A stretch of 64,000 nucleotides of DNA. Source: Bryoerythrophyllum caledonicum. Lineage: Eukaryota; Streptophyta; Bryopsida; Pottiales; Pottiaceae. Both the position numbers and the translations under genes were made by a program. A model generated the notes under the pieces. It ran no database searches. It saw nothing but the letters and a program-made list of their open reading frames with translations, and was not told the DNA's origin. Shown here one piece after another: positions 5,128 to 64,000 of this stretch (the first letter of the stretch is position 1; each line of letters begins with the position of its first letter). The stretch covers positions 22,888,462 to 22,952,461 of the forward strand of contig OZ020517.1 in NCBI GenBank assembly GCA_963971425.1. Direction: 5' to 3'.

Positions 5128-6005
5128 TACTAAGGGTCTTGACTAGTAGCAAACCTCCATTTAGAACTGAGTTGGTGAGAATGGGATGGAAGTCTAAGGT
5201 TGGATATAAGACAAGTCCTAAACCGACAAGTTAAGGAATGTGCATATATGGAGAGAAGAGATAATTTTACTATTATTTTCCAGTGATAGCCAGTAGAATT
5301 ACAATTCCAACCCAAGTGATTTCATATTTTTTTGATGAAAGTTGAATTAGTTTTGAATTTTCAAACTGTGCATCCATGTTTAGTGGGTGGCCAGTGGTAG
5401 GTACCCTCCATAACCAACAACCAAAAGTAAGGGTCTTGACAAATAGTAAACCTCTATTTGAAGCTGAGTTGGTGGTTGTTGGGATAGACACCCATTAACT
5501 CCCGAGAGTTAAAGCTCAAGTGGCGGCTCCACCTCAGAGTACGGTTCCCACCCAATTAACAGGTGCATGTACTTACTATCTATATAACTATACCCCTTGG
5601 TTGTGAATTCAAATCCCCATGCCGGCGTGGTGCCTACCACCATAGTCCACCCAACTATGGTGGGGGGTGTTGAGACCTCGTTGTATGGGTACCCAAAAAG
5701 CCCTTGGGGGGATGACATGTCAGTTCTCTTCAAGGCACTTAGTGTAGAAAAATGTTTACCTTCAAAAGGGGGAAGTAGCTCTAGATTCACTACCCAATGT
5801 CCGGTGGCCATGGGACTAGTGAATAGAATGAACAAACACTATATTCACGCCGGTCACTTCGGGGCCGGAGTTCTTCTTCTTCACTATACCCCTTCCCGGG
5901 GATACCCAAGTATTATCCTTCAACAAAGGTAATGGGATGGAAGAGGGTTGGATATACCCCAATTTTATAGGCGTTGGCTGTGGGTTTCCGTTGGTTGTGG
6001 GGGAG
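5128..6005 (+). mobile_element. MITE family M, copy 1, interrupted by a SINE
   Basis: Core 5215-5490 carries the family hallmarks: AAGGAATGTGCATATATGG, then AGTGATAGCCAGTAGAATTAC, then CAACCCAAGTGATTTCATAT. The tail resumes at 5932 (GGATGGAAG, then ATACCCCAATTTTATAG). A second tail piece lies directly upstream (5128-5205), so two copies abut head to tail. Other copies are at 12.3, 23.3, 25.0 and 25.7 kb. No ORF of its own; non-autonomous. Confidence 0.7.
5490..5925 (+). mobile_element. tRNA-headed SINE sharing the LINE 3' tail
   Basis: The 5' part resembles a tRNA gene with pol III boxes: an A-box-like AGCTCAAGTGGC near 5513 and a B-box-like GAATTCAAATCC near 5605. The 3' part (about 5770-5885) is clearly similar to the end of the LINE at 56460-56577, sharing CCGGTGG, ACGCCGG, CTTCGGGG and CCGGAGTTCTTCT in order. 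It interrupts a MITE copy; the flanks TGGGATAGA and TGGGATGGA look like a diverged target duplication. It is probably mobilised by the LINE. Confidence 0.6.
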
Positions 6006-12986: not shown

Positions 12987-16022
<3,036 letters not shown>

Positions 16023-21475: not shown

Positions 21476-22811
21476 TTGTACAGTACCCTCACACAAGTAT
21501 ACGTACTTTTTTTGATTTTGTACGTTTCCACACTACACTGTTGCCAACTTTGGCACCCTCCTGAGGGCTGAAAAATTGTCAATTTACAATGAAATTTTTG
21601 GCACAAGATCACCTTTATGTTGACAACATGTGTGCCACATTTCAAGGCCAGAAAATAAATTAAAAAAAGATATTCAAAATCTACCAAGATGTGTAGTTGT
21701 GAGCCATTCACAGCTAACCAACTTTGACACCCTCCCAAGGATTGAAAGAATTTTTTTGCCCATGGAATTTTTAGCATGAGACCACCTCTATGTTTATAAT
21801 AAGTGTGCCAAATTCCAAGGCCACATGATGAATAGAAAAAAGGATATTCAAAATTGTTTCTCGTAGCTACATATTTTGGTAGATTTTGAAGATGGTTCTT
21901 TATATTCATTATCTGGCCTTGAATTTTGGCACACATGTTATCAACATGAAGGTGATATTGTGCCAAAAATTTCATGGTCAATTAACAATTTTTCCGACCT
22001 AGGGAGGGTGCCAAAGTTGACAATAGTGAAATGGTTTCGCTGATTGTTTCTCACAACTACACATGTTGGTAGATTTAGATTTGTTTCTTTTCTTTTGTGG
22101 GTCTTTTGGACTTGAAATTAAGCACATGTATAACCAACATAGATACGGTCTTATGTCTAGAATATCATGGGAAAAAATAAAAAATTGAATCCTTAGGAGG
22201 GTGTCAAAGTTGGCAGCAGTGAAATGTTTCTCACAACAATACATGTTGGTAGATTTCAAAAATATTTTGATATGTAGATATTTTGGCCTTCAAATTTGGC
22301 ACGCATGTGATCAACATAGAGATAGTCTCATGTCAAAATTTCATGGGAAAATACCGAAAAATCCAATCCTTGGGAGTGTGTCAAAGTCGGCTAGGAGTGA
22401 AATGTTTCTCACAACTACACATGTTGCTAGCTTTTGATGTAGTTTTAATTGTGTGGATCTTTTGAACTTCAAATTTTTCACACATATAATCAACATAGAG
22501 GTCGTCTCATGCTAAAAATTACATGGGCAAAAAAAATTCTTTCAATCCTTGAAAGGGTGTCAAAGTTGGCAGCTCTGAAACTTTTCTTACACCTACCCCA
22601 TGTTGGTAAATCTTGGATATCTTTTTTTGTATGAGTCTTCTGGCCTTGAAATTTGGCATACGTTACCAACATAAAAGTGATCTTGTGCCAAAAATTTCAT
22701 GGAAAATTCACGAATTTTTAGCCCTCATGACGGTGCCAAAGTTGGCAGGAGTGTAGTGTGGAAACGTACAAAAGGAAAAAGTACGTATACTTGTGTGAGG
22801 GTACTGTACAA
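21476..22811. mobile_element. TIR element made of about 180-bp subrepeats in opposed orientation
   Basis: Long inverted termini (about 85 bp) begin TTGTACAGTACCCTCACACA at both ends. Between them are seven diverged units of about 175-190 bp marked by GTGCCAAAGTTGGCA, TGGCCTTGAAATTTGGCAC and ACATGTTGGTAGATTTT. The first two units run one way; the other five run the opposite way, with the switch near 21865. No coding frame. It resembles foldback elements. Confidence 0.8.
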
Positions 22812-25995: not shown

Positions 25996-27597
25996 ATGGA
26001 TTAGTCCCTCTAGTTGTCTTTTTGATTGCATCTAAATTAGGGCTTTTGTCAAATTGTCTAGTTATAGACATTTAAAAGAGTATCCAAGAAGAAGAAGAAG
26101 AACTCCAATCATTAGTGGAGGCCGGCGTGAATAGAGTGTCCAAACAAGTCAATGCCCATCGGACAAAGGATTAGAAGTATGGAACTACTTCCTTCTCACA
26201 AGGGTAGAGACTATAAAAAAATTCAAACTATTAACTTGTAGATCCTTATTTAATTTGATAAATGTTTATTTGTTAAAATTGGTCAAGTGCCAAAGCAACA
26301 ATTTAAACCATAGTCTAACATTGATCTACTTTCTTAATATTTTAATCAGATGGTACTTTGAAAGTTAATCATAAATTTTCCCATTTTGAAAGAACATACC
26401 CATGTATTTCTCTTCTTTAAGAGCATTTCCAAAGATACCAAGTTTGCCCAAAGAAAACTCACAATGTATGTAATTTAATGTTATCACAAGCAAAAAATAC
26501 ATTAAATTCACACTATAAACTATTGCAATTGTGTTGTTGTGCACAATATTGATATTTTCTTCTATTTTACAAGAATTTTAGTATACTTATTGTTTTAAAG
26601 TTATGGTTGGTTGTCTTTAAAATCAAATCCACACTCAAATCCACTAGTATATTAATCCAAATTAACTTGTGGCACTAATTTCTAAATACTAGTTTGTTTG
26701 TTCTTTACCTTACTATTGGGTGAATTTACAATCTGAACCCTTTACGGATGAGCAATTGTGTAAGGAAAGTGAAATGTATCCGTTGCCTTCAAGGTGATGT
26801 TTTCCAAAATCTGTTATAATTATAGATTCTTCCATTGTCCAAATTTTGCTCATTCGTAAAGGATTAATATGGTGGTCCTGGATTTGCTCACAAGTGAAAT
26901 TAAGAACACTAAAATCTGGACATTAAAAAACTAGGGCTTAAACATAAATTAGAAATTACTTCGTACTTTAGATTTTTAAATGAAATTGATAATTCAAATT
27001 ACACATTGCAAATTTTTACATCCTTATTAAAACATTCTTTTAAAAAGCATGTCTTTTTTGCATAATTAGCTTTATAAAAAATAAGCCAAATGCTTAAATT
27101 GGTAGCTTGAAGGCTACCAACTTGATTTTTTATTGGAATTTATTTATCATTAAAAAAAATGATTCTACCAATTTTCAATGTATTTTTTGAAGGTCGTATA
27201 ATGATAAGATATGATTTTATAAAATGTATTTTAGATGTGTCTAATTTTATCCTGAATGTTTAGTTTTTGGATTGTATAGATCATTGTCATTAGTATTTAT
27301 ATATCTTAAAAGTTTGTTTCAGATTTGCTACTATCTAAAAACAAGTATGTGGTAGGGTGGACAAAGATAGAGTGTATGTTTGTTTCGCCAATAAGTAGAT
27401 GCCCACCAAACAAAGGATTAGTAGTATGGAATTACTTTCTCCTCTTGAGGGTATACACTATGAGTTTTTAAAAAGTAATATACATCCATTTGTAACCGAA
27501 ATTTAAAAATATATATATATGTATATATATAATACCATACAAAAGAAGTTGTTATGTAGACTTACAATCTTCAAATTGAATTGTAAAATAAAATAAA
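25996..27597. other. AT-rich DNA with a spaced direct repeat; no gene
   Basis: About 80 bp at 26145-26225 recur at 27390-27470 in the same orientation (ACAAAGGATTAGWAGTATGGAA, then ACTATRA). Nothing coding was seen between them. Confidence 0.5.
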
Positions 27598-27711: not shown

Positions 27712-28918
27712 TGTTGTGAATCCGAAGAGTAGTCAAGTGTCTTGCACTTTACAAAAGGGGGAATCAACGAGTGCGAGCGAAACTAAAGAATGCGGAGCCT
27801 ATACTAATGATAACTCATCAATTACAAACAAAGGTAAGTCACTAAGCATTCTCTAAACACACGGACAAAGCTTGACTTGACAAAGATATCAAGTCAAGCG
27901 CGTACATGCCGCTATACACACACAAAGTAGAAGTCGACAAGAGGGTGTACATTTTGGGCAAAAATGATATACTCCATAGGATGTTTGTTTTGAAGCCCTT
28001 TGATAAATTGTTGTTGAATGCCAACCGCCCATTGATTAGGTATAAAGAAATCATGGCCAACAAAATGTTAGGTGAACATAAAATATCTTGAACAAAGTGC
28101 TAAATTTTGGGACTTTGTGTTGTCATAACACATGTTTCTCTATAAGTGGTCCAACCCTTTCCCGAGGTGAGAATACTACATACTACAGAGACTGAAAATA
28201 TACCAAACATACTACACACTATATATGCTGAATCAAGACACCAAAGACTAGGTTTTGAAGAAAATGATGGAAAAAACAGTATTTTTGAAAACACTTTATA
28301 TTTTAAGATAGATTTTTGTATGCTAAAGAAGGTTTGACTAAAATTTGGAGCAAAAATCAACATTTAATCCCCATTTTAAGTGCTTCTAAAAAATCAGCCC
28401 ATTTTTTACTGTTACAAGCAAATTTAAGCCTCAGATCATCATTTTTCATTTGAAATGACCAAAAAGAACATGTTGTGCATGTAATCTGAAAGTTTTGTAG
28501 AATTGTGAACTTCTGATCTTCCACAAGAAGTATATTTGTTACATTTTAAAAACTGTGTCAAGTATATAGTATGAACAAATATACTTCTTCTCATTGAACT
28601 GTAGGCCGGTTTGCTGAAAATTTACAATATGTGTGATGGCATGGAAGTCGGGACTCACATTTTGTAGACCAACATCTGAAATCAAAAGCAAATTGGGCAT
28701 GTGATGCGAAAGAGCAGTGTGTCATGGCTCCATGCCGTTTGTGAGAGTTTTTTGTACCACCTTAGTCGACTATCACCCCACACGCGTAAAACCCTAGCAG
28801 ATGAAATACATCGATTGGACGGATGTAGTTTGGCGGACGTACATCACTAACAAACGTAGATTAGAACAATCTAATTTACGCTAACACTACGCGATGTGAT
28901 GCGGTCCTCGACACCACA
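27712..28918 (-). mobile_element. Left LTR-like repeat of the gypsy element, with an internal insertion
   Basis: Begins TGTTGTGAATC and ends ACACCACA. It matches the split repeat at 43292-56824 (AGTAGTCAAG, AATGCGGAGC, ACTAATGATAA, CTTGACTTGACAA, GAAATACATC, TGCGGTCCTCGAC). About 0.84 kb of foreign sequence (roughly 27930-28770), with short inverted ends containing GTCGAC, interrupts this copy. LTR status is inferred from the paired direct copies around gypsy coding remnants. No PBS or flanking 5-bp duplication was confirmed. Confidence 0.55.
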
Positions 28919-28924
28919 TCTTGT

Positions 28925-29045
28925 GAGAGTTGTCGTGTAAACAAAGATCGTTAAACACAACAAATCGAGAATTTCAACCAAGATCAAATAAACGAAAGGC
29001 ATAGCCAAATACAACTATGTTAAGCACACCCTCAACTTTCAAGTG
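28925..29045. repeat. LTR-adjacent segment A, copy 2
   Basis: Second copy of the 27598-27711 segment, directly inside the left LTR-like repeat. Confidence 0.6.
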
Positions 29046-29412: not shown

Positions 29413-30105
29413 TTAATCCTTGGACGGTAGAGTACAAAGAGGCGGCGTCAAGCAAGCCAAATGCCAAGCACGCTCACAATGATCACAAAGCAACATGGTA
29501 GCCGTGCTTTCCTTCTCACCACATACGAAACATGGAAGACCGTCTGGCACCACGGCCAACTCGGGATGAACGGAGCCATCAATGAGTAAATGGCAGGGAG
29601 CACAATTCTTAGAGTGTTCTTGATACTCCCGACCGTCCTTGCCTTCCAACAAAAAAATACCACTTGGTAACACATCCTTCACACGAAGAATAGTGTCTCT
29701 TAACCTTGACGTCCAACGACGTAGGCGCCACACGCTCCAGATAAACATAATTCCTATAGGAAAACGCTGCAACTGAGGTCGATAGGCTCCGCTACGAATA
29801 CGAGCGTACCGCAATGTGTCACGGTGCTAAGCAATGAATAAGTTCTTCATGGTTATTGATATGGCCTACTTGAAGAACTCCGCCCAATCTCCAAGACACT
29901 AGGCCCACACCTCTATATCATCCAAATCCACAATCGAAGCCATCTTTTCCAAACAAAACACAATAAAATTGGCTCCCGCTTGTATAACAATTGATATAGG
30001 TTGAAAGCAACCAATGAAGCGTGTTGGCTTATCCGATACTCCATGGCGATCCATATTATCATCAGATCACAATCACGATGGCCATTTGTTGCAGTTTGTA
30101 GAGAG
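29413..30105 (-). pseudogene. Ty3/gypsy integrase C-terminus with fused PHD finger, decayed
   Basis: Minus-strand pieces read in order: IAMEYRISQHASL, YQLLYKREPIL (integrase core end), a linker with several TAG stops, LRYARIRSGAYRPQLQRF, ILRVKDVLPSGIFLLEGKDG and NCAPCHLLIDG. These are followed by a PHD finger with CFVCG, CDHCERAWHLAC and PPL. The reading frame ends with TAA where the conserved Trp before the last Cys pair is expected; cysteines continue beyond it. One frameshift lies near 29950. Chromatin-reading modules downstream of integrase are known in gypsy-like elements and could bias insertion. Confidence 0.65.
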
Positions 30106-43398: not shown

Positions 43399-43806
43399 GA
43401 CAACGGGCCGCAATGCTTAGAGAGTAGCTCCGTAAAATCTGGTGAGGAGGGGTCTTAGGTGTTAGGCGCAAAAACGAAGCACAAGGCAATGAGAGATGCT
43501 GGATCTCATTGCAAATCCCGTTGTGCACCTCGTTTTTGTTGCTAGAAGTTGTCTCTAAGTTGTGAAGAGTGTTGGCAGGGATTGCAAGATCTTGATTTGC
43601 TGTCATAAGTTTGAATGGGCTGCAATGGATCTAGCACTAGAATGGGAGAGTAGATCTGAAGTGGGGCTCTGTGTTGGCCTAGATCTAGCTCTAGATCCTG
43701 CACTACCCACATCAAACATGCACAAGTAGATCTAGATCTGGATACCATATCACAACTAGAAACATTACACCTAGCACCTCCTCAACCAGAACACAAGCAC
43801 ATACAC

Positions 43807-46800
43807 ATGAAGATCGACTGCTGCCAACAATATGCACGAGACCGAAGCCAAGATACAAGATTTTCCCACAAGGACAGACATTCTCAAGGATCAGCTAAGT
43901 TTCATATATGTATTCAGTACTTAGGAAAGTCTCAACATTGTTCTTACAAACGTAGTAGGTACATGCTAGAAATTGTTAATGCTGCTGCTATATGCATGTC
44001 TAATCCCTATTGCAAGAAGTCACAAAAGCAGCCCAAGCAGATCTACACTGGTACGCAGAGACTCCCGAGGACAACGCACGAAGCAGCAACACTGAGGGAA
44101 AAACGCCAAGCCACCTGCAACACAAGCAACAAATCAATGGAGGCACTCTGTAATCAACAAGTTCATCACCTGCTGCTGATCAGCACTAAAGCACAGGGAC
44201 CCACGCCCCCCGAGGACAACGTAATGAGCAACAATCGTCAAGTCCATCACATACCGCAGCCCGAGCAAATCAGCACTATACTGAACTACAGGAATCAACA
44301 CTCACGAGGGCAACGAAAGGAGCAGCAGCACACAATCACCTGCCGCAGCCCGAATAGACCAACACTGGAAAGCAGGTACCAACACTCCCGAGGACAACGT
44401 AGCGAGCAGCAACACCCAAGAAAAAATGCCAAGCCACCTACTACACAACTTTGTGACACAAACCAACGGCAGCACTCAGCAATCAACATGGTCATCACCG
44501 AAGGCAAGACACAGAACAACAATGACTCGACTCCCCTTCTGGCCAAGGTACGTATCTCAAACCCTCACTTGACCATTATTTGCTTGTTATTCCTTGACTT
44601 CAGATGGACAGCGAGAAAAAGAGAGGTACGACGTTACAACAAGAAGAAGCTGGAAAGATACGAAACACTGGAACATGAAGATCCAACAAAACCAAGAAAG
44701 AAGGAAGTACAGGCCCATGGACTTAGCATCTGGAGAAGCCTCACGTCAAGACCAACACAACGTCAACACCACCGCATATACCAAGCTCATCAACACACAC
44801 CAAGACCATCACAACATCAACGCCACTTTCAATACCAAGAACACCATCAGCATGAAGACAAGACTTCAAGACATCAAGCGAGCACCAGGTATGTACACGC
44901 CAAGGTAAGCAACCCTACCACCACCCCACTTCCCTTCCTCCATGCCAATAAATCCATACTAATTTATGACAGGAGCTCTGGAAAGACTAAGTACAAGCAA
45001 CACATAGGGAAGCAGGACCAGCCACAAATACGAAGACAAAACCCTAGCCGCCATAAAAATGACGAACCTACGGAAGAGCAAGTTCTACAACTCCATCCAA
45101 GACAACATAATCGACAAGATACAACCCAACGGCTCCACGAGGTAGCCAAACCTAAACATCCAAAAGCCCTAAAACAAAGACGTTCATCGACAACAACCAC
45201 ATCCATCAAACAACTCTACACAAGGTATAAAGCACGCCCTCACTATCCTCTCAAACCCTCTTACACTGCTCTACTGCGTAGACATCCACTTCATGTATTG
45301 TGGAACCAGTACGACACCTGCTTAGTTCATGCAGAAGTTACGGACCTGAGTGGAGATGTGAAGCGAAGACGAAGGAGAGAGTCGCATCTTCCACGCCCAA
45401 CTTGGACACGTCTAGACAGTGAAGAGCAACCTACCCTTTTTCTCACAAAATTATTGACTTTTGTTTGTATTTATTTTGCACAGCTCCACATTAACTTATT
45501 GTTGGCATGCTCCGCGCAGAGAACACAGCACCCGCAGCAGATCCACACGTGGAAGACGATTAACCTGGTTAGCACCACAACAAACGCGGTCAGGAGACGA
45601 AGGAAGAACCGGGAATACACAACTCGTAGATCAGACACAACCAGTCGAAGAAGACACCTGGAACCTACAGCAAGCAGCCGAACGAGCAAGATCATCAAGA
45701 CCGGTAGACCGCATGTGGAAGACAGCCGACGGCGCAGAAGATCGGAAACCCAAGGCCGTAGCCCAGCAGCCCCTTTCGAGAAGAAGCCCGCACTCCGCCT
45801 GAGCTCACAAGCAGTAGTCCAGAACGTGGACGTACCTGGTGGAAAGTCGCGCAGCCAGGCCTTGTGCGAACTTGCACGGACGAGTCCGAACTTTCACAAA
45901 CGCGCCCTCTGTCACCCAGCTCGAACCCTTACAGACGAAGAACATGCGAAGCCCCTAACGGCGAGTTACCAACGGACGCTGCCCGAGACGCAATCGGACC
46001 GAAGCCCTGCCCTACGCTCTGTCCGCATGCACAAGAGGAGGACGCCCCATCAACAGCTAATCCAGGCCACATCGGCAATTACCAAGGTTGGACTTACAAG
46101 GAAAGCCGACACCTACAGAGCGAAGAGCCTCGCCCGAATTCTGCAACTGGCATTCGGTACCTACCGCCACCACTCCACAGCCGCTAATCGCCGAGCACGA
46201 ACAGCCTGGAGCCAACCTGTTTGCGCTACCCAACGGCACATCGTGTCTTTCTCAAAGACGACACAGGGAGCCACTCGAAGTCAAGTGGCCGACAAGGTAC
46301 TCGAGAAGGAATCTTCCCTGACGTCGAACCTTCCTAGCCGACTACTGAACCCAAGCTGCAGTGTAGATACCCCTGAACAGTGCCCCCCTAAACCCGTGGA
46401 CGTCGATCCAAGAGTCCCGTCCAAGTTAGACGTGCGAGTGCAACCACGAGCTTGGACCAGATTAGTCAGCAAGCAAGGAAGGGAAGCCACGGGTAATCAG
46501 CTCAAGGATCAACCACACAACTCCCAAGTGGTCACTGGATATTCAGGTCATATTCTCCCCTCACCTTCGTCACTACTTTATGTTCTTTGTTGTCTACTGG
46601 TTTATTTTGGAAACCAATGGGCACACAATCTTACCTTAATATCAAAATTTCTTTCTCTGAGAGGTGACCAATTTTCTGGCACCTCTCGTGTATGTGTATA
46701 TGTAGTAATTAAACAACATAACCCTAACCTCTCCTATCTTCGAATCTTAGGAATCTTGCATGTTATTTTGCATGTTATTCATATTGTATGTTATCCCGTA

Positions 46801-46974
46801 TGTTATCAAATCCTACATGCTAGCTATATTGATACTTTCTACTTCTTAAAAACCTTAACATCAACAAGCCCTCAACGTACGTTGAGAGGAGATGTTAAGA
46901 ACAAGAAGGAAAGAAGGAAAGTTGAAGTGACAAGCTATAGATCACATAGTAACACTCTCTTCTTTTTCTACAGC
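43807..46974 (+). other. Long open leader in frame with LINE ORF1, with intron-like signals
   Basis: 1056 codons without a stop run in frame into ORF1, rich in Arg, His, Gln, Thr and Ser, with no domain. The DNA is C/A-rich, which lowers but does not remove expected stops. Splice-like signals occur: GTACGT to TTCAG (44548-44603), GTAAGC to ACAG with TACTAAT (44905-44972), a GTATAA donor at 45225 with a TTTTGCACAG acceptor ending 45483, and TTTTTCTACAG ending 46973, one base before the ORF1 ATG. It could be a giant N-terminal extension or a spliced untranslated leader; the ATG just after the last acceptor favours the latter. Confidence 0.45.
44060..44440 (+). repeat. Diverged tandem monomers in the LINE leader
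   Basis: The phrase CTCCCGAGGACAACG plus GAGCAGCAAC recurs near 44067, 44210, 44300 and 44382, with shared intervening text (GCCAAGCCACCT, ATCAACAWGKTCATCACC). This gives about four units of 80-140 bp. Monomeric 5' UTR repeats act as promoters in some LINEs. Confidence 0.6.
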
Positions 46975-48561
46975 ATGTCTCAACAACAAACTACTGCCAC
47001 TTCCTCCAAACGCCTGTTTGTTGAAGTGCTTGAAGGTATTCCGAACCCTCTAAATGTGATGCAAAATGCCTTGGTTATTACAAGCTCCACCCAGAAAAAG
47101 GTGAAGGCAACAAGTTTGCCTTCCACCAAATACTGGCTAGGCTTCCAAACAATGAATATCATTGCAAAGAAGAATGGGGAAGAAAAAATACCTTTGGTTA
47201 CCATAGAAGAGTTGGTAAAATGTGGGTTAAATGAAAAGGAAGCATGTGAGAGTTTTGAGGCAATACCGTCATTTCCTTTTGTCATCCAAGAGGAATGGCC
47301 CTCTAAAAGGCATGATGGAAAGGTAGGAAATCATTTCAATCTCACCCAACTTCCAAGTGAAGTTGAGGTGGATGAAGACGGCTTTGCCTTGGACTACCAA
47401 ATTTCCATTCATTTTGACTTGGCGAATCAAGTATGGTCAAAAAATGTGGTACTAGACATGGTGAAAACACGACTGCAAGAAATGGAGATACCTACAGGAA
47501 CACGCATTGGTGAACCAATAGCCGTGTTTTGTCACCACCAGTCCGACAATTGGACTGGTGTGGTGAAACTGCACCTAAAAAACCCGGTTATCGATGCGAA
47601 AGGCTTATTGGGAGGGCTAAGGCCGTTCATCCTCATTTTGAATGAAGGAATCCCACACCAAGGAAAAGTATGCAAAGCATACGACTCCTTGGCCTTCTCA
47701 CATCTCTTATCGGTGAAAATATCAAGCCCAAGTCTTGTTAATGTAGATCCATACCACTTACATGCGGAGATTGTAAAAGATGGTTTTGCAAGGAGTTATG
47801 ATTTCGAGGTAACGGGAGTAGAAAAGAAAAGCTCTTCAGATTTTGCATGGGTCAAAACTCCCTCCCCGGAACAAGCTGCTAAAATAAAAGACTATAAAGT
47901 CTCATTTTGTAATGAGATTTTTATGCCTGTTTTTGCAACCCGGAAAATGGATGAGGATGAGATCGCAAAAAAGAACTGTCTAATTCTCATTGCAAAAAAC
48001 CTTAACAAAACAAAAAACGAAAAAGAATTGGTAGAAGGAATAAAATCCATAATTGGGGAAGAAAATGTAGTTGACACATACTTCAAACTGGAATACGGAC
48101 GACATGTAGGGACTTGCAATATTGAATGTTTAAATGCGGCCGTCTATAAAAAATTTGTTAAACAAAGTAAAAAATTACACGGAAAATACATTATGTTTAC
48201 CCCTCACCCCAAGAGTCTAGACGGCAGCAACAAACCGAGCGCAGAAGAACTAACGAGACTAGGTTTTTCGGATGTAAACGCGGCCGTAGCTAACGCGATG
48301 ATTGCCATGGAGAACGAACCAAATAAAGGTCATGGAGTTACCCTACAACAACTACGCAAAGAAATGAAGACCATGAAAGGAGAAATCGTAGACGAAGCAA
48401 GGCAATATGCGGACATGGTACAGGCGAACACGGTCAAATCCCTAAGGGGAGAAATGTCAACCCTTCGATCCCAACTCATTGCAACCATCATGGCGGCGGA
48501 AACTCAAGCATCGGAACGGGAGCAAAGAGTCATTGAGAACAAGATGGACATGTCAAACTAA
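46975..48561 (+). CDS. LINE ORF1 protein, 528 aa (RNA-binding-like, coiled-coil C-terminus)
   Basis: Starts MSQQQTTATSSKR directly after an acceptor-like TTTTTCTACAG. Residues 1-330 form a globular region I do not recognise. Residues about 333-412 look like an RRM fold (NCLILIAKNLNKTKNEKEL as the first strand and helix, then EYGRHVGTCNIECLNAAVYK). The last 80 residues are heptad-rich and charged (LRKEMKTMKGEIVDEARQYA onwards), likely a coiled coil for oligomerisation. ORF1 proteins of LINEs usually coat the element RNA. No CCHC knuckle here. It ends TAA TAG. RRM is a by-eye assignment; LINE ORF1 identity rests on position. Confidence 0.75.
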   Translation: MSQQQTTATSSKRLFVEVLEGIPNPLNVMQNALVITSSTQKKVKATSLPSTKYWLGFQTMNIIAKKNGEEKIPLVTIEELVKCGLNEKEACESFEAIPSFPFVIQEEWPSKRHDGKVGNHFNLTQLPSEVEVDEDGFALDYQISIHFDLANQVWSKNVVLDMVKTRLQEMEIPTGTRIGEPIAVFCHHQSDNWTGVVKLHLKNPVIDAKGLLGGLRPFILILNEGIPHQGKVCKAYDSLAFSHLLSVKISSPSLVNVDPYHLHAEIVKDGFARSYDFEVTGVEKKSSSDFAWVKTPSPEQAAKIKDYKVSFCNEIFMPVFATRKMDEDEIAKKNCLILIAKNLNKTKNEKELVEGIKSIIGEENVVDTYFKLEYGRHVGTCNIECLNAAVYKKFVKQSKKLHGKYIMFTPHPKSLDGSNKPSAEELTRLGFSDVNAAVANAMIAMENEPNKGHGVTLQQLRKEMKTMKGEIVDEARQYADMVQANTVKSLRGEMSTLRSQLIATIMAAETQASEREQRVIENKMDMSN

Positions 48562-48695: not shown

Positions 48696-49076
<381 letters not shown>

Positions 49077-49103
49077 CACCACCACCAAAAGATAAAGCCC
49101 CCA

Positions 49104-52100
49104 ATGACATCAAAACCAACAGCAACAACAACAACAATAACAACAACAACATCAACAATAATAAACCCCCAAAGACACCAACAACAACAAAAACCCCAAC
49201 AACTCCAACCACCCAAACAACCCCTACAAAACCTAAAACCCCAACAACATCACTACCCTACCACAATCTACCTCTGTAAAATACTAATACTTCTCAGCGG
49301 TGACATTGAAAAAAACCCAGGCCCCATGCCAAACATAATAAAAACACACCCCGCAGCTCATAAAAAACGCGCAAAAATGTACTTCATCCCTAGTACTATA
49401 AAACTACACCCCGAGTATCAACACCTTGCTAACACATTTTCACCACTACTAAAGAACACACATGAACTACATAACTCACATAACATGACCTACCCGCATA
49501 TAGCACAATTCATTGAACAAAAAACTACACATCCCCCATCACATATCCTATATGCTTTAATTATTACAGTACACCCCTCTCTAGAAGAGTGCAACCAAAT
49601 ATTAGCCCTACAAAATACCAATACCACAAATTGGACCAACACTCTCCTTAACAACTTAATCACTCTACATAACCCACCCGAAAGACATATTAATACGAAA
49701 CACCCGTATACAAGTTTCCTAGCAGAAAATCAAAATATTATCCAACATAGAGACTCCATACACAAAGAAATATATGATTTCGTACACAGTCAAACCTCAC
49801 CCCCCACACAAAACACTATCCAACTACACTTCCCATTCCTGCCACATGAACTAACTAAAGAAATAACGAGATGCTTTGAGCCAATCCTAGAATACACATT
49901 CCCATCCCCACCAACCCCATATATACCACCTGTAAATCATAACGAAAACACCAGAGACATCAATACATACATCTTAACATGGAACGCTGCATCCCTAAAC
50001 ACTGCTCTCCCATGCCTCCATAATCTATCTACCCACACCAACACACCACCCGCCATAATTGCTATACAAGAAACTAAATTAACCGCTACTAAATCCACAA
50101 AATACATCCAAAAAACATTCCCCGACTACAAACTTATATTTAATAACACTCATGCCCTTACAAGATGCATCCAACAACGTATGCCATATACACCAACGAG
50201 AGGAGGCCTCCTTATGCTCATACACCAATCATATGCCTTCCCTGGGAATATCACTAAAATTCCTACTCCGGCTAATATATCACCATACCTCCAAATTATT
50301 AAAATTACTAACCGACCCCTCCAACCATGGCTCATTCTTCACCTATACATGCCATCGCACATAGAAGACTCTAGGCTTATTCCGGAAATCCAAAATTCCA
50401 TCACTTCACAAATTAATACGCACACTAACCATACAATAATACTTTGTGGAGACTTTAACCGAGATATTGCCCTTATTGGACGACAAAACGGAGAGACCTT
50501 CACCACCCCACGTGATATAGACTATCAATGGCGAAATTACACAGATAATCTAGAATTATATCTGATCCCAACCGATACACAATACTCTCGTCAAGGAGGA
50601 CTTAATTACACACACACTAGCCTAATTGATGGATTTTACATTAAAACACCTAACCATACCCAATACACATCTATCACCAATACCTCAACCAACTTAAACT
50701 CGGACCACTTCCCGATCCAACTAAATATACCTCATAACATCCTTATAAGTAGACCCCCCACCAAAACAAACTCAAATGATATCAAAATACTAAACCCCAT
50801 CCCAAAAGAAAACCTTGACAACTTTAATACAATATTCTTTGAAAAAAACTCACTACAGATAGACTCCCTTACAGAAATTCTATCCAACCACCAACACCTA
50901 ACACACATACAATGGCAAGAAGCCTGCACCTCTCTTGACAAAATTATTAATGAAATTTCTACTACATTAGAAAAGACATGCAAAGCACCTCCGACCCCAC
51001 AACTCACACCTAGAACCTCGAATCAAGGGGGGTATCTCCCGAGAAAACTAGCCAAAAAGTGGAAACAACATCTTGTTACATACCACAATATTCGGAAAAC
51101 AATTTACATCGCTAAAACTAATCAAAATTGGCGAACCCACCCCATACTCTCTGAACTACAAAACCTTCGCCATCCCCAAATCCCACAAGTACCACCGCTC
51201 AACAACCCTCACGAAGATTGGCTAAAAGACATTGCAGTCATTGCAAAAACCGCCAATAAACAAGCTCGGAAAATTACTACAAAATATACAAGAGAATGTA
51301 TCAGAAAAGCCATTTCTAAGTATCGTCAGCTATACGAATCTAGCCCAAAAAAGATTAATAGAAAAGTTTTTAAAAACAACACAAACTTACCATTAGATTG
51401 CATTCTAGATCAAAACAATAATATTCTAACCAGCCCAAATGACATTGCAAACGAAATACATTTTCAACAATCCATAAACAATAGGCCATCCACCCCCTCA
51501 TGTCACTTCCAACCACAACATACACCAACATGCACATGCGGGGTTAGACAATACCCGTGGCATGATCTTGACGGATTCACCATTGATAAAAGAGGAGAAC
51601 CCACGACTCCTCTCCACACATATTATAACAGAGACACATATAACATGTGCCTAAAAAATCTGGGAACCAACAAAGCTCCCGGACCGGACTATATACCTAA
51701 CTCAATTCTAAAAAACATGCCTCCGAGATTCCATGACCTTCTATCATTATTTTTCCTCCATTGTTACAAACAAAAAGCAATTCCTGCATCCTGGAAAACA
51801 AGTTTAACAATCTTATTATACAAAAAAGGCAACCCAACCGAGCTACCTAATCACCAACCTATTGCCTTAGCCAACGCCATTTACAAACTGTACACTAGCA
51901 CATTAACATCAATACTATCGGCCTACGGGGAAAAACACCAAATACTACATGAAAGCCAAGAAGGGTTTAGAGCTGAAAGAAGTACCACACGGCAAATCCA
52001 AACTATCATCGCCGCTCTTGAGGATGCAAAATTCACTAATAAAGACATTTACATACTCTACATTGATTTCAAAAACGCTTTCGGTTCCATTGACCATCCT

Positions 52101-55100
52101 CGCTTGCTAACCATTATGAGCGATCTTGGATACCCGTGCGACGCGGTCACACTGGTTGGCAATATATACTCCCAATCTACCACTACATACGTTGGAGAAT
52201 TCTTTGGTAAAACACGCCCTATCCCTATTCAACGAGGGACCATCCAAGGCGATACATTGAGTCCATACCTCTTCATTATTTTTCTGGAACCCCTACTGAG
52301 ATGGCTTCAAAGAGGGAATAATGGCTACACATTTGGCACCTCAAAAGTTACCATAAACTCGGCCGCATATGCTGACGATCTTGCGGCCATCTCCGGACGC
52401 CTCAAATCACTCAAAACTCAATTGGACAAAATAGACAAATTCTGTCTATGGTCCGGGATGGAACTTGGGGTCCAAAAGTGTGCCATAACCGGATGTCCAA
52501 ACAAATCTAAAACAAACCCGACCGCCTTCAAAGCCCTTATTCAAGCTAACAATATCCACTATCGTAACCAACCAATCCCGGTTCTAAACCAAAACCAACC
52601 CTATATATACCTTGGAATAAACCTAGTCCCATCTTTAAAATGGAAAATTCAAATTCATGCTACTACTACAAAACTTATTAAACAATGCAAGGAACTTATA
52701 CTTTGTCCGGCCACATTGCAACAAAAAATAAAAATGATTGATACCGTCATACGACCGGGTATCTCATACAGTTTCTATGCGGTCCCTTATTCCATGCCCG
52801 CCATAAATAAACTCGATAAGAAAATCATAGCCATACAAAAGAAAGTATGCGGGCTCCCCAATTGTACGCCTAATATCATAACACAACTTCCCCATGAACT
52901 ATTCGGATTAGAAGCTTTCTCCCTCAAAAATGCCTACTTACGTTGCATTGGAGAACAACTCCAGAATGCACTTAACAATAAAGGACGACTAGGACTAATT
53001 TACAGTGGACTCCTTCGGCACATCCTTGCCATTTATGGAGGAGCACAATACCTCCAAAGACTTAAAAAATCTGATTGTCTTCGGTCCCCCATTACCCGCA
53101 CACTTTTTCTACTTAAAACAGAAGGTCAAATATTTCTAAAAAGCACACTAGAAGATTTCCTACTAGACCCCGCACCACTTGAACAAAATTGGGCAAATGA
53201 AATTCATAACCTCCCTAGACTTGACCGACAATTATCCGACAAACTCCTACAAAAACTCTTCTCTGCAAACATTACTGATCTAAAACAAATTACACTACCA
53301 AATGGAACACACCTTATGGACGACAAGAGCTACAAAACACTCTATGGTACCCCTCATAAATTAATAAAAAGTGCACTAAACATTGCCAAACAATTATTTT
53401 GTCACCCTCCATGTCTCCCTACATGCCCCAACCCTTGCGCCAATCACGCCCCACCGTACACACTTAAAGACTCATATATCATCAATCACAATGACATCCA
53501 CCCCAACACCAACCCCCCACTAATTCCCCCAAACCCACCACACTCACGACCATATGCCCCTCCACCACATATATTAAAAAACCCTTCCATACACCCAATA
53601 AATAACATAACCACGCACAGACATAATAAACACATTGACTCCAACAAAATAAGTAAACAATATACGACGTACCTATGCCACTGGTCCCACAATAACAACA
53701 CCTACGCCAAATGGCTCCCACAAAGAAATCTTTTCCCTTGGCACAACCCAAATACTTCCTTACATAACACCGAAATCCTCACACAATACTACCTTAGAAC
53801 TCAAAATAGTCATTACCTAAATATCATACAAATACACCACCCCCAAGCACAACTTCGAGATAGAAGATTTGTCACACCACCCCTTATTATCCCCCTTCTT
53901 AACATCTTTACAACTGAATGCAACCCAGAAACGGACATCCGAGCACAAACAAATACAATCAAAATACAACAAGACAATGCCCACATATACGAAGGTAATG
54001 GTAGACATCTAATAACCATACCACTCGCTAGACTACAATGGCTGTGGAACCAATATCACAACGCACTACTAACCCCCATTAACATCGAATCAATACCCCA
54101 AACATTTGAAACCGAAATTGTTTGGCTATACCAAAGATACAACTACCGAACACCCAAAAATGACCCCCTCAAAAATGCACACTACACATTACCTGATCCT
54201 ATCTTAGACTACCTTATTACATCCCTGAATATCACACATTCATACTTCTCATCCCCCGTTACATGCTCCACAAAAATCTCAAAATTTTACTCTCCATTCA
54301 AACGCGATAAGATTTTTGGGTCTCTTGGAAAAGCCTTTGATTATAAGTGGAGTGGAATAGGCCTCGCACACCCTCACAACGAAGAAGAAACACAACAAGC
54401 AATACATTGGGCACGCCTAGCGGCAAATAATGACCCCAACCACAATATCACCATCATTATCACTCCCGACACTCATTGGTACCACAACCCTAACCCACAA
54501 TTAGGCCCATTCCCGGACTCCCACATCATAGTACTATTTGAAGCCGATTCCATGACTTACAAAGAACCCACTATACCACCGCAAATACAAACACCCCCCC
54601 TTGAACCAGCAACCCTACGTATCCTATGTATACACCAACAAACTCGTGAAATAGGTAATCTAGAAATCTTCAATCATCTCACTTTGATAGCAAAAAATCT
54701 AAACATTAACAAGGTATACACTGCAATTGCCCCCCCCACGCCCATATCAACCCGTGTAAACCGCAACAAAAAATGGTCTAAAACCCCCCACACAAACATC
54801 TCCACGTCACCAATTACCGAACTAAGCCTCCCCCTCTCTTACTACCAAATTAATATAGACCTTAAATTTGACCCCAACTTTAGCTACTACACTGACGGCT
54901 CTTTCAAAGAACCAACCGAAGTAAGCTCGGGACATTGGCACCGGGAGAAAGCCGGTTATGGGATATACAATTCTACCAAACAAATTAAATTAGGTAAAAG
55001 ACTACATGGACTCCAGAATATTCTAAGAGCCGAAATGATGGCTATACACAAAACCCTCAAAATAATCACCACCCAATACCCAAACGAACCGGCTCACATT

Positions 55101-56351
55101 TTTACAGATTGCATAAATGTATTATATCTCCTTAATACACATATTAAACACCCTACTTTACACAATAGTCATCCGGATAAAACTATCCTTCAATCTATGG
55201 TTGAAATGCTCCAAAACCGTACACAGATTACTACACTCCATAAAGTCCGTGCTCATGCTAATATCGACGGCAATGAACAAGCCGACAAACTAGCAAAGGA
55301 AGGGAGAGAAAAAACCCACAAGAATGCCGAACACCCATACGAACACGCTCATGCTACCCCATACTACTTTCATAGACATGAATGGCCCTCTATGGGTGAA
55401 ACTCCCGATAAAGGCCCCGTACGATTCTTGGACAAATACCTCAACAAACATGATCTTCTAAATAACTTAGAAAAACTTACAGAAAACTTCCCCAATATTG
55501 ATAAATGGACTGGCAACCCAAATATTCATAATGTACTATCCAATAATTTTTGGAAAAACCCCACTATAACGGATCCACAAATCACATGCCTAATCAAATT
55601 CCGCACCGGACAATACATGGGCAATGCCCGCAAACAACTCTTCTTTGGAATAGAAAGATTTCCTACAATAACATGTCCAATTTGCAACACCACAGACCCG
55701 GACACATGGCTACATGTCCTACTCAAGTGCCAAAACCCCCATATACATTCACTAATTGTTAAAAGACATAACAAAGCCGTATGGGCTATTCGTAAACTAC
55801 TTATATCATCAACTAAATCCCGTTGCTTCGTTCTCATGAATGCCGGAACCTTTAATGACAATCCACAAGAAAATACGGTCCCCCCTTGGCTATTACCATG
55901 CACATGTTGCACTCAAAGATGCCATTGTAATGCAAGATTCAAACCGGACCTACTATGTGTTAGAGGACTTTCATACAAAGACCCCCCTCCAAACCACATA
56001 GATCCTAATCTCACTATTCAGTTTATTGAATTCACATATTGCAATGATAGATTCTCTCCGGACACTATTGCTAACAAAACAAACAAGTACCAACCACTAC
56101 TTGATGATATTCAAGCACTAGGATGGAAAGTAGACCCCCTCATTGTAATCACCGCGGGTGCCAGAGCCACCACCTTCATTCCCTCAATGACAACCCTTGA
56201 AGAAACATTTAAAATCCCCATCACTTCAATCAAAACCACCTTCTCAAATATTAACACTATTGCAATTCAACATGCTATGTCAATACTCCTGCATAAACGG
56301 AAACTTGAAAACAACCAACCCCTTCCTGATACATCAAACCTCCCTCCATAA
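49104..56351 (+). CDS. LINE ORF2 polyprotein, 2415 aa: 2A, APE, RT, RNase H, CCHC, restriction-like endonuclease
   Basis: Low-complexity Thr/Gln/Pro start, then a hydrophobic patch and 2A motif (GDIEKNPGP, residues 66-74). AP endonuclease about 288-545: WNAAS (W293), QETK (E323), GDFNRD (D450) and SDH (534-535). Reverse transcriptase about 830-1110: D988 in YIDFKNAFGS, GTIQGDTLSPYLF and YADD at 1089-1092. A long linker follows. RNase H about 1925-2070 with D1931, E1977, D2002 and D2061 all present. CCHC knuckle C2191, C2194, H2204, C2209. C-terminal restriction-like endonuclease signature: KPD (2280-2282), IEFTY (E2309) and KTNKYQPL (2325-2332), then GWKVDPLIVITAGA. First-strand nicking, target-primed reverse transcription and RNA removal are the expected roles. 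All key residues seen are intact. Confidence 0.88.
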   Translation: MTSKPTATTTTITTTTSTIINPQRHQQQQKPQQLQPPKQPLQNLKPQQHHYPTTIYLCKILILLSGDIEKNPGPMPNIIKTHPAAHKKRAKMYFIPSTIKLHPEYQHLANTFSPLLKNTHELHNSHNMTYPHIAQFIEQKTTHPPSHILYALIITVHPSLEECNQILALQNTNTTNWTNTLLNNLITLHNPPERHINTKHPYTSFLAENQNIIQHRDSIHKEIYDFVHSQTSPPTQNTIQLHFPFLPHELTKEITRCFEPILEYTFPSPPTPYIPPVNHNENTRDINTYILTWNAASLNTALPCLHNLSTHTNTPPAIIAIQETKLTATKSTKYIQKTFPDYKLIFNNTHALTRCIQQRMPYTPTRGGLLMLIHQSYAFPGNITKIPTPANISPYLQIIKITNRPLQPWLILHLYMPSHIEDSRLIPEIQNSITSQINTHTNHTIILCGDFNRDIALIGRQNGETFTTPRDIDYQWRNYTDNLELYLIPTDTQYSRQGGLNYTHTSLIDGFYIKTPNHTQYTSITNTSTNLNSDHFPIQLNIPHNILISRPPTKTNSNDIKILNPIPKENLDNFNTIFFEKNSLQIDSLTEILSNHQHLTHIQWQEACTSLDKIINEISTTLEKTCKAPPTPQLTPRTSNQGGYLPRKLAKKWKQHLVTYHNIRKTIYIAKTNQNWRTHPILSELQNLRHPQIPQVPPLNNPHEDWLKDIAVIAKTANKQARKITTKYTRECIRKAISKYRQLYESSPKKINRKVFKNNTNLPLDCILDQNNNILTSPNDIANEIHFQQSINNRPSTPSCHFQPQHTPTCTCGVRQYPWHDLDGFTIDKRGEPTTPLHTYYNRDTYNMCLKNLGTNKAPGPDYIPNSILKNMPPRFHDLLSLFFLHCYKQKAIPASWKTSLTILLYKKGNPTELPNHQPIALANAIYKLYTSTLTSILSAYGEKHQILHESQEGFRAERSTTRQIQTIIAALEDAKFTNKDIYILYIDFKNAFGSIDHPRLLTIMSDLGYPCDAVTLVGNIYSQSTTTYVGEFFGKTRPIPIQRGTIQGDTLSPYLFIIFLEPLLRWLQRGNNGYTFGTSKVTINSAAYADDLAAISGRLKSLKTQLDKIDKFCLWSGMELGVQKCAITGCPNKSKTNPTAFKALIQANNIHYRNQPIPVLNQNQPYIYLGINLVPSLKWKIQIHATTTKLIKQCKELILCPATLQQKIKMIDTVIRPGISYSFYAVPYSMPAINKLDKKIIAIQKKVCGLPNCTPNIITQLPHELFGLEAFSLKNAYLRCIGEQLQNALNNKGRLGLIYSGLLRHILAIYGGAQYLQRLKKSDCLRSPITRTLFLLKTEGQIFLKSTLEDFLLDPAPLEQNWANEIHNLPRLDRQLSDKLLQKLFSANITDLKQITLPNGTHLMDDKSYKTLYGTPHKLIKSALNIAKQLFCHPPCLPTCPNPCANHAPPYTLKDSYIINHNDIHPNTNPPLIPPNPPHSRPYAPPPHILKNPSIHPINNITTHRHNKHIDSNKISKQYTTYLCHWSHNNNTYAKWLPQRNLFPWHNPNTSLHNTEILTQYYLRTQNSHYLNIIQIHHPQAQLRDRRFVTPPLIIPLLNIFTTECNPETDIRAQTNTIKIQQDNAHIYEGNGRHLITIPLARLQWLWNQYHNALLTPINIESIPQTFETEIVWLYQRYNYRTPKNDPLKNAHYTLPDPILDYLITSLNITHSYFSSPVTCSTKISKFYSPFKRDKIFGSLGKAFDYKWSGIGLAHPHNEEETQQAIHWARLAANNDPNHNITIIITPDTHWYHNPNPQLGPFPDSHIIVLFEADSMTYKEPTIPPQIQTPPLEPATLRILCIHQQTREIGNLEIFNHLTLIAKNLNINKVYTAIAPPTPISTRVNRNKKWSKTPHTNISTSPITELSLPLSYYQINIDLKFDPNFSYYTDGSFKEPTEVSSGHWHREKAGYGIYNSTKQIKLGKRLHGLQNILRAEMMAIHKTLKIITTQYPNEPAHIFTDCINVLYLLNTHIKHPTLHNSHPDKTILQSMVEMLQNRTQITTLHKVRAHANIDGNEQADKLAKEGREKTHKNAEHPYEHAHATPYYFHRHEWPSMGETPDKGPVRFLDKYLNKHDLLNNLEKLTENFPNIDKWTGNPNIHNVLSNNFWKNPTITDPQITCLIKFRTGQYMGNARKQLFFGIERFPTITCPICNTTDPDTWLHVLLKCQNPHIHSLIVKRHNKAVWAIRKLLISSTKSRCFVLMNAGTFNDNPQENTVPPWLLPCTCCTQRCHCNARFKPDLLCVRGLSYKDPPPNHIDPNLTIQFIEFTYCNDRFSPDTIANKTNKYQPLLDDIQALGWKVDPLIVITAGARATTFIPSMTTLEETFKIPITSIKTTFSNINTIAIQHAMSILLHKRKLENNQPLPDTSNLPP
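49287..49325 (+). other. 2A-like ribosome-skipping motif in ORF2
   Basis: ILILLSGDIEKNPGP fits the D-(V/I)-E-x-N-P-G-P consensus exactly with the usual hydrophobic lead-in. Skipping would release residues 1-73 and start the main protein at Pro74, with Met75 next. Confidence 0.85.
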
Positions 56352-56589: not shown

Positions 56590-56824
56590 ACTTACAAGCA
56601 AAGACACCTCCCTAAACACTCTCTAATTACTCTCACAAAGCTTGACTTGACAATGACGTCAAGTCAAGCGCATACACGCTACTACACACACACAAAACCC
56701 TAATAAATGAAATACATCCATTGGACAGATGAGGTTTGGTGGACATACATCTCTAGCAAATGTAGAGTAAAATAATCTAATCTAAGCTGACACTACGCAA
56801 TTTGGTGCGGTCCTCGACGCCACA

Positions 56825-57515
56825 TCCGGTGTCAAAGTAGTTGAGAATAGAAATAATAATTAATCATTAATATGTATAATTCACTAAAGAAAAAGAAAAA
56901 TATTTGAATGTGCTACATCTAAACATTCAATAAAAAAACTCCAAGGAAATTAACGACCAAAAAAAACATTGGAATATTATAATAATCATTAGTCACTTAA
57001 AGAAATCTGAGCTCCAAAGTTGTCTAAATTGTATATAATATTGCATCATAGAAAATCATACAAATAGATTTTTCTTTCTTATAAGTTGATATTTTGTAAA
57101 ATGAATGAAATTGTAAGTTGGGGGTGGTTCACTACCTCATTTTGGTTAGTTGTTTGTTAGTGTGTGATTCAAGTTGATTGGTTCTTTTATGTACATCTTA
57201 GAGCTGTTAATAATACATAAAATCTAATCAATGGTTCATTCAATATGATTGGTTTAAATTAGTACTCATTGATAATTATGTATATGATTTTCAAATAATT
57301 GATGGTTTATTAATATTAATTGATCTTTTCATGATCCTTTATACTTAAAGGCGTGATATCAGTTGGTGAATATCCACTCCGTGATCTATGGCGATTGATA
57401 TTCATTGCATCGTTTAAATTGTCTAATTGTTCAAAGCGTGATTCATGCAGATAGACAATCTAATGTATGGTCCAAGACAATTGATATGAAGGTAGATAAT
57501 TTACAGCAAGCCATG
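56825..57515. other. AT-rich DNA; no gene seen
   Basis: Short frames only; flank of the gypsy element. Confidence 0.5.
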
Positions 57516-61868: not shown

Positions 61869-62411
61869 CTAATCCAGGTTGAGCTGCGTCGCGACCACCA
61901 CACCTCCCACCACAGACCCGAAGAGCAACCCCGGCATGAGCGGCCCCCCAGCGCGATACATAGGCCCCACAACCGGCAACCGCTTGGCACACAAGTCCGC
62001 AACCAGAACCGCCAGGGTGCCCAGAGGAACATACAAGGCCAGCCGGTGCCGCGCCGTCGCCAAGCCCATATCCCGGAACAGCACGACAGAGAGCACCCTG
62101 AACTCGTCAATCGCCACCGTCCTCTTGAGGCGCTCCTTCCTCACAACGGCGTCGACCTGCGCCTGAGTCGGGGGATGCGGCAGCCAGCGCTGCTTGAAGC
62201 GCGAGAGCCTGGCGTCGTCGTCGGAGGAGGACGGGAAAGGGATCTTGTCGTAGACGCGGCGCGAGGCGTCCAGGAGCTGGTACAGCTGCAGCCCCGCGAA
62301 GGCGTGTTGCGAGAGCGCCATGCATTCCTCGAAGCTTGCGTCCACAGCCGCGTGGAAGGAAGGTGACGCGGACAGTGTCTCCTCGACTCGCTTGGATGGA
62401 GATTGCCCCAT
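61869..62411 (-). CDS. Small conserved-looking plant protein, 180 aa, likely N-myristoylated, two C-terminal hydrophobic segments
   Basis: Single exon, GC-rich and coding-biased, starting MGQSPSKRVEETL and ending TQLNLD then TAG. Gly2 with Ser6 fits the N-myristoylation signal. Residues 10-100 are helical and soluble (ECMALSQHAFAGLQLYQLLD; WLPHPPTQAQVDAVVRKERL). Two hydrophobic stretches follow: LALYVPLGTLAVLVADLCA (about 128-146) and GPLMPGLLFGSVVGGVVVAT (about 156-175). Membrane association is inferred. I do not recognise the family. The leader carries AAACCCTAA telo-box motifs and a duplicated start. Confidence 0.75.
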   Translation of the reverse strand: MGQSPSKRVEETLSASPSFHAAVDASFEECMALSQHAFAGLQLYQLLDASRRVYDKIPFPSSSDDDARLSRFKQRWLPHPPTQAQVDAVVRKERLKRTVAIDEFRVLSVVLFRDMGLATARHRLALYVPLGTLAVLVADLCAKRLPVVGPMYRAGGPLMPGLLFGSVVGGVVVATQLNLD

Positions 62412-62794: not shown

Positions 62795-63310
62795 GTACAC
62801 TGAACATCACATTTAGTGTAGTCACATAAATAGTGTAATTACCCTACTACACTATTTGCGAACTTGTTCACAATTAGTGTTAGTTGCGGCAAGCTTTTTC
62901 ATACACTACTAGTATTTTATTCACTGCGGCAAGCTTATACAGCTACACTAATTGTGTACAAGTAAAAAAAAAAACCACCCATTTTCACATATAGTGTAAT
63001 GTTTCACATTTAGTGTAATGTTTCACATTTAGTGTAATGTTGTGTCGTTACACTAATTGTAATTCTTCCTTTTAGTGTAAGGGTTCGTATTTAGTGTAGA
63101 CGACACTAAATGCAATGTTTAGTGTAGTGTATCCACACTATGTGATTTTGTTGTTTTACTTTTGATGAATATTTTTCACCAAGAGCACAACTATCTATAT
63201 CACTCAAAGAGACAGATCGTTGCAGACATTGATGGTAAAAATATTCATCACGGGTGAAAATTTATAGCATTTTCAATTCAATTAGTGTGGATACACTTAT
63301 TGTGACCATA
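62795..63310. repeat. Cluster of TTAGTGTA motifs in both orientations
   Basis: The words TTAGTGTA or TACACTAA and close variants occur more than a dozen times, including CACATTTAGTGTAATGTTT repeated in tandem near 62995-63045. GCGGCAAGCTT occurs twice. Looks like a hairpin-rich, MITE-like patch. Confidence 0.6.
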
Positions 63311-63312
63311 TC

Positions 63313-64000
63313 TCCTTGAATTTTGATCCCGCATATGCTCACTACATAGATGGTTCCTTCAAAGAACCAACAGAAACAAGCCCCGGACATTGGCATAGGG
63401 AAAAAGCAAGATATGGCATATATAACTTCACCAAAGGAATAAAAATATCCAAAAGACTATATGGACTTCAAAATATCCTTAGAGCATAAATGATGGCCCT
63501 CTATAAAATCCTCCAAATTATCACTACACAATACACTAATGAACCCCTAGTGCGCATCTTTACATATTGTATAAACGTCTTGTATCTATTAAATATACAA
63601 ATAACACATCCTACCATCCATAATAGCCACCTTGATCAAATCATACTAACATTTATGGTTCAAATGCTACAAGACCGCACACAAATTACAACCCTCCATA
63701 TAGTTAGAGCACATGTCACTATAGAAGGAAATGAACAAGCGGAAAAACTAGTTAAAGAAAGATTAGACAAATTCCATAGAAATGCCAAACACCCGCATGA
63801 ACATGCCCACGCTACCCCATTCTACTTCCAAAGAGAAAGTTGGTCTTCTATGGAAGACACCCTAGATAAAGGCCCTATAAGATTTTTGGATAAATATCTC
63901 AAAAAACAAAATCTAGTTAACAACCCGGATTTAATCTCATAATGTTTCCCTAATAGACAAATGGACCGATACCAACAACATTGATAACAAACTCTCTACA
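63313..64000 (+). pseudogene. 5'-truncated, decayed second LINE copy (RNase H region onward)
   Basis: Aligns with ORF2 from nucleotide 54861 on (IDGSFKEPTE, RLYGLQNILRA, HAHATPFYFQ, KGPIRFLDKYL). Catalytic Glu1977 is a TAA stop, Asp2002 is Tyr and Asp2061 is Glu. The copy runs past the window edge. Similarity starts abruptly at about 63313, the mark of 5' truncation. Confidence 0.85.

Follow-up and report, generated by a model that had tools for sequence, protein, structure and literature searches.

Most clades of LINEs rely on one nuclease. The question raised by this locus is whether one LINE protein carries two, an AP endonuclease (APE) and a C-terminal restriction-like endonuclease (REL), and whether such an element resides in a land plant. 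The locus lies in a 64-kb stretch of DNA from the moss Bryoerythrophyllum caledonicum (64,000 nucleotides; hereafter the window), in which an earlier, sequence-only reading had suggested a land-plant member of the Dualen/RandI group of green algae. The whole is, with high probability, best explained as a two-ORF non-LTR retrotransposon of Dualen/RandI type in the moss genome, with the mechanism proposed below included. The large second ORF has matches to profiles and motifs in the order 2A-APE-RT-PCIF-RNH-REL, where RT is reverse transcriptase, PCIF a PCIF1/CAPAM-like domain and RNH RNase H. Its parts are as follows (residues are those of ORF2):

49104..56351, + strand: ORF2, 2415 aa, intact from ATG to stop
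49272..49325, + strand: 2A-like sequence LCKILILLSGDIEKNPGP, residues 57-74
49974..50717, + strand: AP endonuclease, residues 291-538; Pfam PF14529 and PF03372, both just under cut-off
51846..52622, + strand: reverse transcriptase core, residues 915-1173; Pfam PF00078
53946..54695, + strand: PCIF1/CAPAM-like methyltransferase-fold domain, residues ~1615-1864, with H1756-P-H-N in place of the NPPF loop
54882..55307, + strand: RNase H, residues 1927-2068; Pfam PF00075; D1931, E1977, D2002, H2051, D2061
55674..55730, + strand: CCHC knuckle, C2191, C2194, H2204, C2209, aligned to R2's own knuckle
55659..56327, + strand: REL domain including the knuckle, residues ~2186-2408; K2280-P-D2282, E2309, K2325

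The sequence-only reading had placed both nucleases in one intact protein, with RT, RNase H and a CCHC knuckle between them and with intact catalytic residues. ORF2 has no internal stops, and the present analysis bears this out. The RT core matches RVT_1 (E 1.3e-26) and retains the RT aspartates, and its nearest PDB match is R2 (E 1.1e-30), followed by L1 (E 4.9e-20). The RNase H region matches RNase_H (E 1.5e-12). The RT residues are common to 12 of 12 aligned relatives, and the RNase H residues listed above to 11 of 12. For the APE, Exo_endo_phos_2 aligns with residues 410-538 (E 4.5e-6, 0.4 bit below the curated cut-off) and Exo_endo_phos with residues 291-465 (E 3.5e-4, also below cut-off), and the top PDB sequence match of the region is a weak one to the L1 endonuclease (E 0.012). 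The region contains N294, E323, Y415, D450, N452, D509, D534 and H535, which we take to be catalytic; each of the APE residues examined is common to 7-10 of 12 aligned relatives, the remainder being mostly gaps.

For the REL, the profile side of the check gave nothing: Pfam has no match anywhere in residues 2153-2415, and a PDB search with the single ORF2 sequence returned RNase H only and no REL. The structural side agreed with the sequence-only reading, as an AlphaFold2 model of residues 2180-2415 matches R2 endonuclease structures. As modelled, the ORF2 C-terminus is an R2-type REL fold, and the family alignment locates the K2280-P-D2282/E2309/K2325 triad within it.

Relatives were collected with two LINE searches (22 of 22 proteins, and the best 120 of 228), from which 134 distinct proteins were kept; the counts that follow hold among these matches listed. 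The named relatives are Haematococcus lacustris, Parachlorella kessleri and Leptosia nina, the last outside the family group of the tree, and the proteins nearest to the window are P0110, P0112, P0123 and P0126. APE, RT and REL occur together in 83 of 135 sequences, all 83 of which also have the PCIF1-like domain and RNase H; APE, RT and REL without a PCIF1-like domain were found in 0 of the 135. The full APE-RT-PCIF-RNH-REL order is present in 66 sequences and in a further 17, the window included, that also have the 2A-like motif. One or more domains are missing in 52, of which 32 are shorter than 2000 aa. As far as seen here, the combination of APE, REL and PCIF1-like domain appears elsewhere to be confined to green-algal and environmental relatives. 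A nested insertion, by which two LINEs would have been fused in one frame by chance, is refuted by the recurrence of this arrangement of domains in a further 82 sequences; nothing was found in its favour, and its probability is close to nil. Several relatives (P0002, P0010, P0011 and others) have extra domains, namely OTU and Ulp1 proteases, PHD fingers and a C5 cytosine DNA methylase.

In 106 rows of the matches listed, P2281 is conserved in 103, D2282 in 106 and E2309 in 96. These counts, the presence in the window of all APE residues examined, and the joint occurrence of both domains in the 83 sequences (with short length common among those lacking a domain) make it rather unlikely that the APE alone cuts, with the REL retained for DNA binding or for structure, or that the roles are the other way round. 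Such an arrangement would agree with the habit of most LINE clades and with the K2325 column, which has K in 56 of the 106 rows, being 56 of 68 outside Haematococcus and 0 of 38 within it; 25 of the 38 have A there, where an alignment shift is possible. The reading in which both nucleases act is preferred.

RTs could be extracted from 127 of the 135 sequences, the match being too short in the other 8; the RT tree comprised 68 of these RTs, two R2 sequences and one human L1. The RTs in the tree are mutually less than 62% identical, and this filter removed P0110, P0123, P0126 and all Haematococcus rows save P0009. The window RT, whose identity to the rows of the filtered tree does not exceed 43%, falls inside a 61-row group with Haematococcus and Parachlorella/metagenomic rows, with values of 97/97 for the group as a whole. 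R2, human L1 and the REL-only rows P0013-P0017, P0019 and P0020 lie outside. The branches of L1, P0019 and P0020 are long, and the amino-acid make-up of the window was flagged as unusual. Regarding the clade, the proposal of the sequence-only reading is supported within the range of the references used, R2 and human L1: the window clusters with dual-endonuclease proteins of green algae rather than with human L1. Of the two outcomes named beforehand as telling against the proposal, neither a grouping with L1, as judged by human L1, nor a C-terminus lacking the nuclease fold was observed. According to one report, Dualen encodes both APE and RLE, and RNase H is listed in Dualen/RandI (PMC4640811).

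The sequence-only reading had overlooked two parts of ORF2, its PCIF1-like domain and its 2A-like motif. PCIF1_WW (PF12237) matches residues 1665-1788 above the curated cut-off (E 4.3e-9). Searched by itself against the PDB, this region of the window hits PCIF1 at no better than E 0.21, a family profile of the domain matches it at E 1.4e-13, and the predicted structure matches human PCIF1 residues 417-668. On the basis of Pfam, the family profile and the structure model, ORF2 holds a Rossmann methyltransferase domain of PCIF1 type, and the domain is an old part of this LINE family, present throughout it. No description of such a domain in the family was found in the openly licensed literature, in which the listed matches that mention PCIF1 with retrotransposons are, by title, immunity or cancer reviews.

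The FASPLN and D..FG positions of the domain are retained. The catalytic NPPF motif is absent from the window, which has HPHN in its place, and relative P0112 has HPHS. Among the matches listed, NPEY, which is near NPPF, occurs in 24 of 109 rows and PPF or NPP in a few, and all 38 Haematococcus rows have WNVPA or WNIPA at this position. In two reports, changes of N553 and F556 made PCIF1 inactive (PMC10544176) or lowered its activity (PMC6318281). Because the NPPF loop has been lost, the moss domain most likely handles RNA without acting as a catalyst. It is improbable that the domain is an active adenosine-N6 methyltransferase on the element RNA, the moss copy included: the fold, the retained positions and the NPEY, PPF or NPP rows would suit such an enzyme, whereas the HPHN and HPHS loops, the effects of the N553 and F556 changes and the Haematococcus rows speak against it. 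As to origin, we advance only tentatively, and at low probability, that an ancestor of the LINE family captured a PCIF1/CAPAM domain as a module handling the RNA 5' end, with catalysis lost and binding kept in the moss. If so, the module could bind or mark the cap region so that RT finishes full-length copies, or could shield the RNA from the host. The presence of the domain throughout the family suggests recruitment of an mRNA-cap enzyme fold by a retrotransposon.

The 2A-like motif GDIEKNPGP occupies residues 66-74, preceded by a hydrophobic stretch, with DxExNPGP at 67-74. It is present in 18 of the 134 relatives among the matches listed, 15 of them Haematococcus. An APE is also found downstream in 16 of these 18 (17 of 19 counting the window), and the APE follows the motif after ~221 residues in the window, compared with 358-590 for the other sequences.

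The remaining parts of the element, and related copies in the window, are:

46975..48561, + strand: candidate ORF1, codon-structured and without a Pfam match; 528 aa, counted from the ATG at 46975
48696..49203, + strand: (AAC)n tract, filling much of the spacer and running into the first ORF2 codons
56352..56826, + strand: 3' UTR, RNA-structured, with a probable 3' terminus at or near 56826 and no poly(A)
56640..56669, + strand: 12-bp stem-loop in the 3' UTR, of which an 11-bp stem is retained, by eye, in the copy at 27808-27926
28750..28920, + strand: 5'-truncated relative, similar from 28779 on, whose end resembles the 3' end of the element
63298..63954, + strand: RNase H region in a second copy, degraded, with 67% aa identity

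The ORF1 claimed earlier is present as this candidate, whose codon periodicity is clear (G 70.8 vs 4.8-6.9 in two controls); Pfam finds no known domain in it. The spacer that separates the stop of ORF1 from the start of ORF2 contains no ATG. Upstream of ORF1, 1105 codons (43660-46974, + strand) are stop-free in the frame of ORF1, with 41 and 51 stops in the other + frames; 300 Markov simulations never gave fewer than 15 in their best frame. Yet the codon periodicity of this region is close to background level, and its internal repeats occupy different frames.

Folding of the 3' UTR beats 100 shuffles (z -4.12). A 3' terminus lacking poly(A), at 56826 or close to it, is suggested for the element because the truncated copy ends at 28920 with the element's ACATC and is flanked, by eye, by an exact 11-bp direct repeat, TTGTGAGAGTT (28739-28749 and 28921-28931); the first 29 bases of that copy are unlike the LINE. 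Inspection of the flanks of the main copy found neither a target-site duplication nor a 5' boundary. Pieces of the 3' UTR recur at five places in the window, and the fragments at 26117-26214 (-), 27366-27462 (-), 5758-5877 (+) and 27808-27926 (+) may be truncated LINEs or SINE-like. The second RNase H copy differs from the main one at 32/190, 25/191 and 90/190 of codon positions 1, 2 and 3, and this third-position bias points to past purifying selection on the RNase H region. Other repeats in the window are a perfect (AG)150 microsatellite (14717-15016) and a tandem array with a unit of ~178 bp (22045-22707); a PHD-finger fragment (29413-29826, - strand, E 4.4e-7) possibly belongs to another transposon.

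Along its whole length, the gene at 61872-62411 (- strand) shares 83% identity with a protein of Physcomitrium patens; the other species-named matches are Marchantia paleacea (56%), Riccia sorocarpa (55%) and Diphasiastrum complanatum (55%). This one neighbouring moss-type gene in the same window supports the land-plant residence claimed by the sequence-only reading. Algal contamination or a chimeric contig could be proposed, since the nearest named relatives among the matches listed are green algae, but it is very improbable given the moss-type gene, the degraded element copy 0.9 kb past it, and the relatives of the 3' UTR across the window, one with its 11-bp flanking repeat. The low identity of the window RT to the tree rows also counts against it, as does the fact that the nearer relatives are the four P-numbered proteins above and not the named algae. 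No paper on Dualen in mosses or Physcomitrium was found among the matches listed from the openly licensed literature. With its residence in the moss, the range of dual-endonuclease LINEs grows beyond green algae to include a land plant, a point relevant to how LINEs exchanged the older restriction-like enzyme for the AP endonuclease.

Target-primed reverse transcription is established for relatives and, judging from its domains, is most likely how the moss element moves. The ORF2 protein would bind the structured 3' UTR of the element RNA, one endonuclease would nick the target, RT would prime from the nick and RNase H would remove the template. We infer that the other nick is made, or its placement aided, by the second endonuclease, which is most likely the R2-type REL next to the CCHC knuckle. 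The 2A-like sequence probably causes the ribosome to release a 73-aa leader ahead of the enzymatic part, and the PCIF1-like domain most likely handles RNA non-catalytically in the moss copy.

Several known systems share features with the element. The moss domain folds like human PCIF1/CAPAM residues 417-668, but it lacks NPPF and is embedded in a LINE protein, and the structural match, which begins at human residue 417, includes no helical cap-binding domain. 2A sequences also occur in animal and trypanosome LINEs, where DxExNPGP is likewise close to the start of the RT-bearing ORF, although those elements belong to a different LINE family. R2 shares the REL fold and CCHC knuckle and is the best PDB match of the moss RT. 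To our knowledge, R2 has neither APE nor RNase H; the moss element has an APE, so the REL is not its sole nuclease, and the RTs separate in the tree. The L1 clade differs in that the moss element has a REL, so the APE is not its sole nuclease. Dualen/RandI is alike in having, in one ORF, an APE before RT, RNase H after it and a C-terminal REL with CCHC knuckle, and, against the two R2 and one human L1 references, the moss RT groups with Haematococcus and Parachlorella proteins; the moss host is a difference, and the PCIF1-like domain and 2A-like motif described here may be others.
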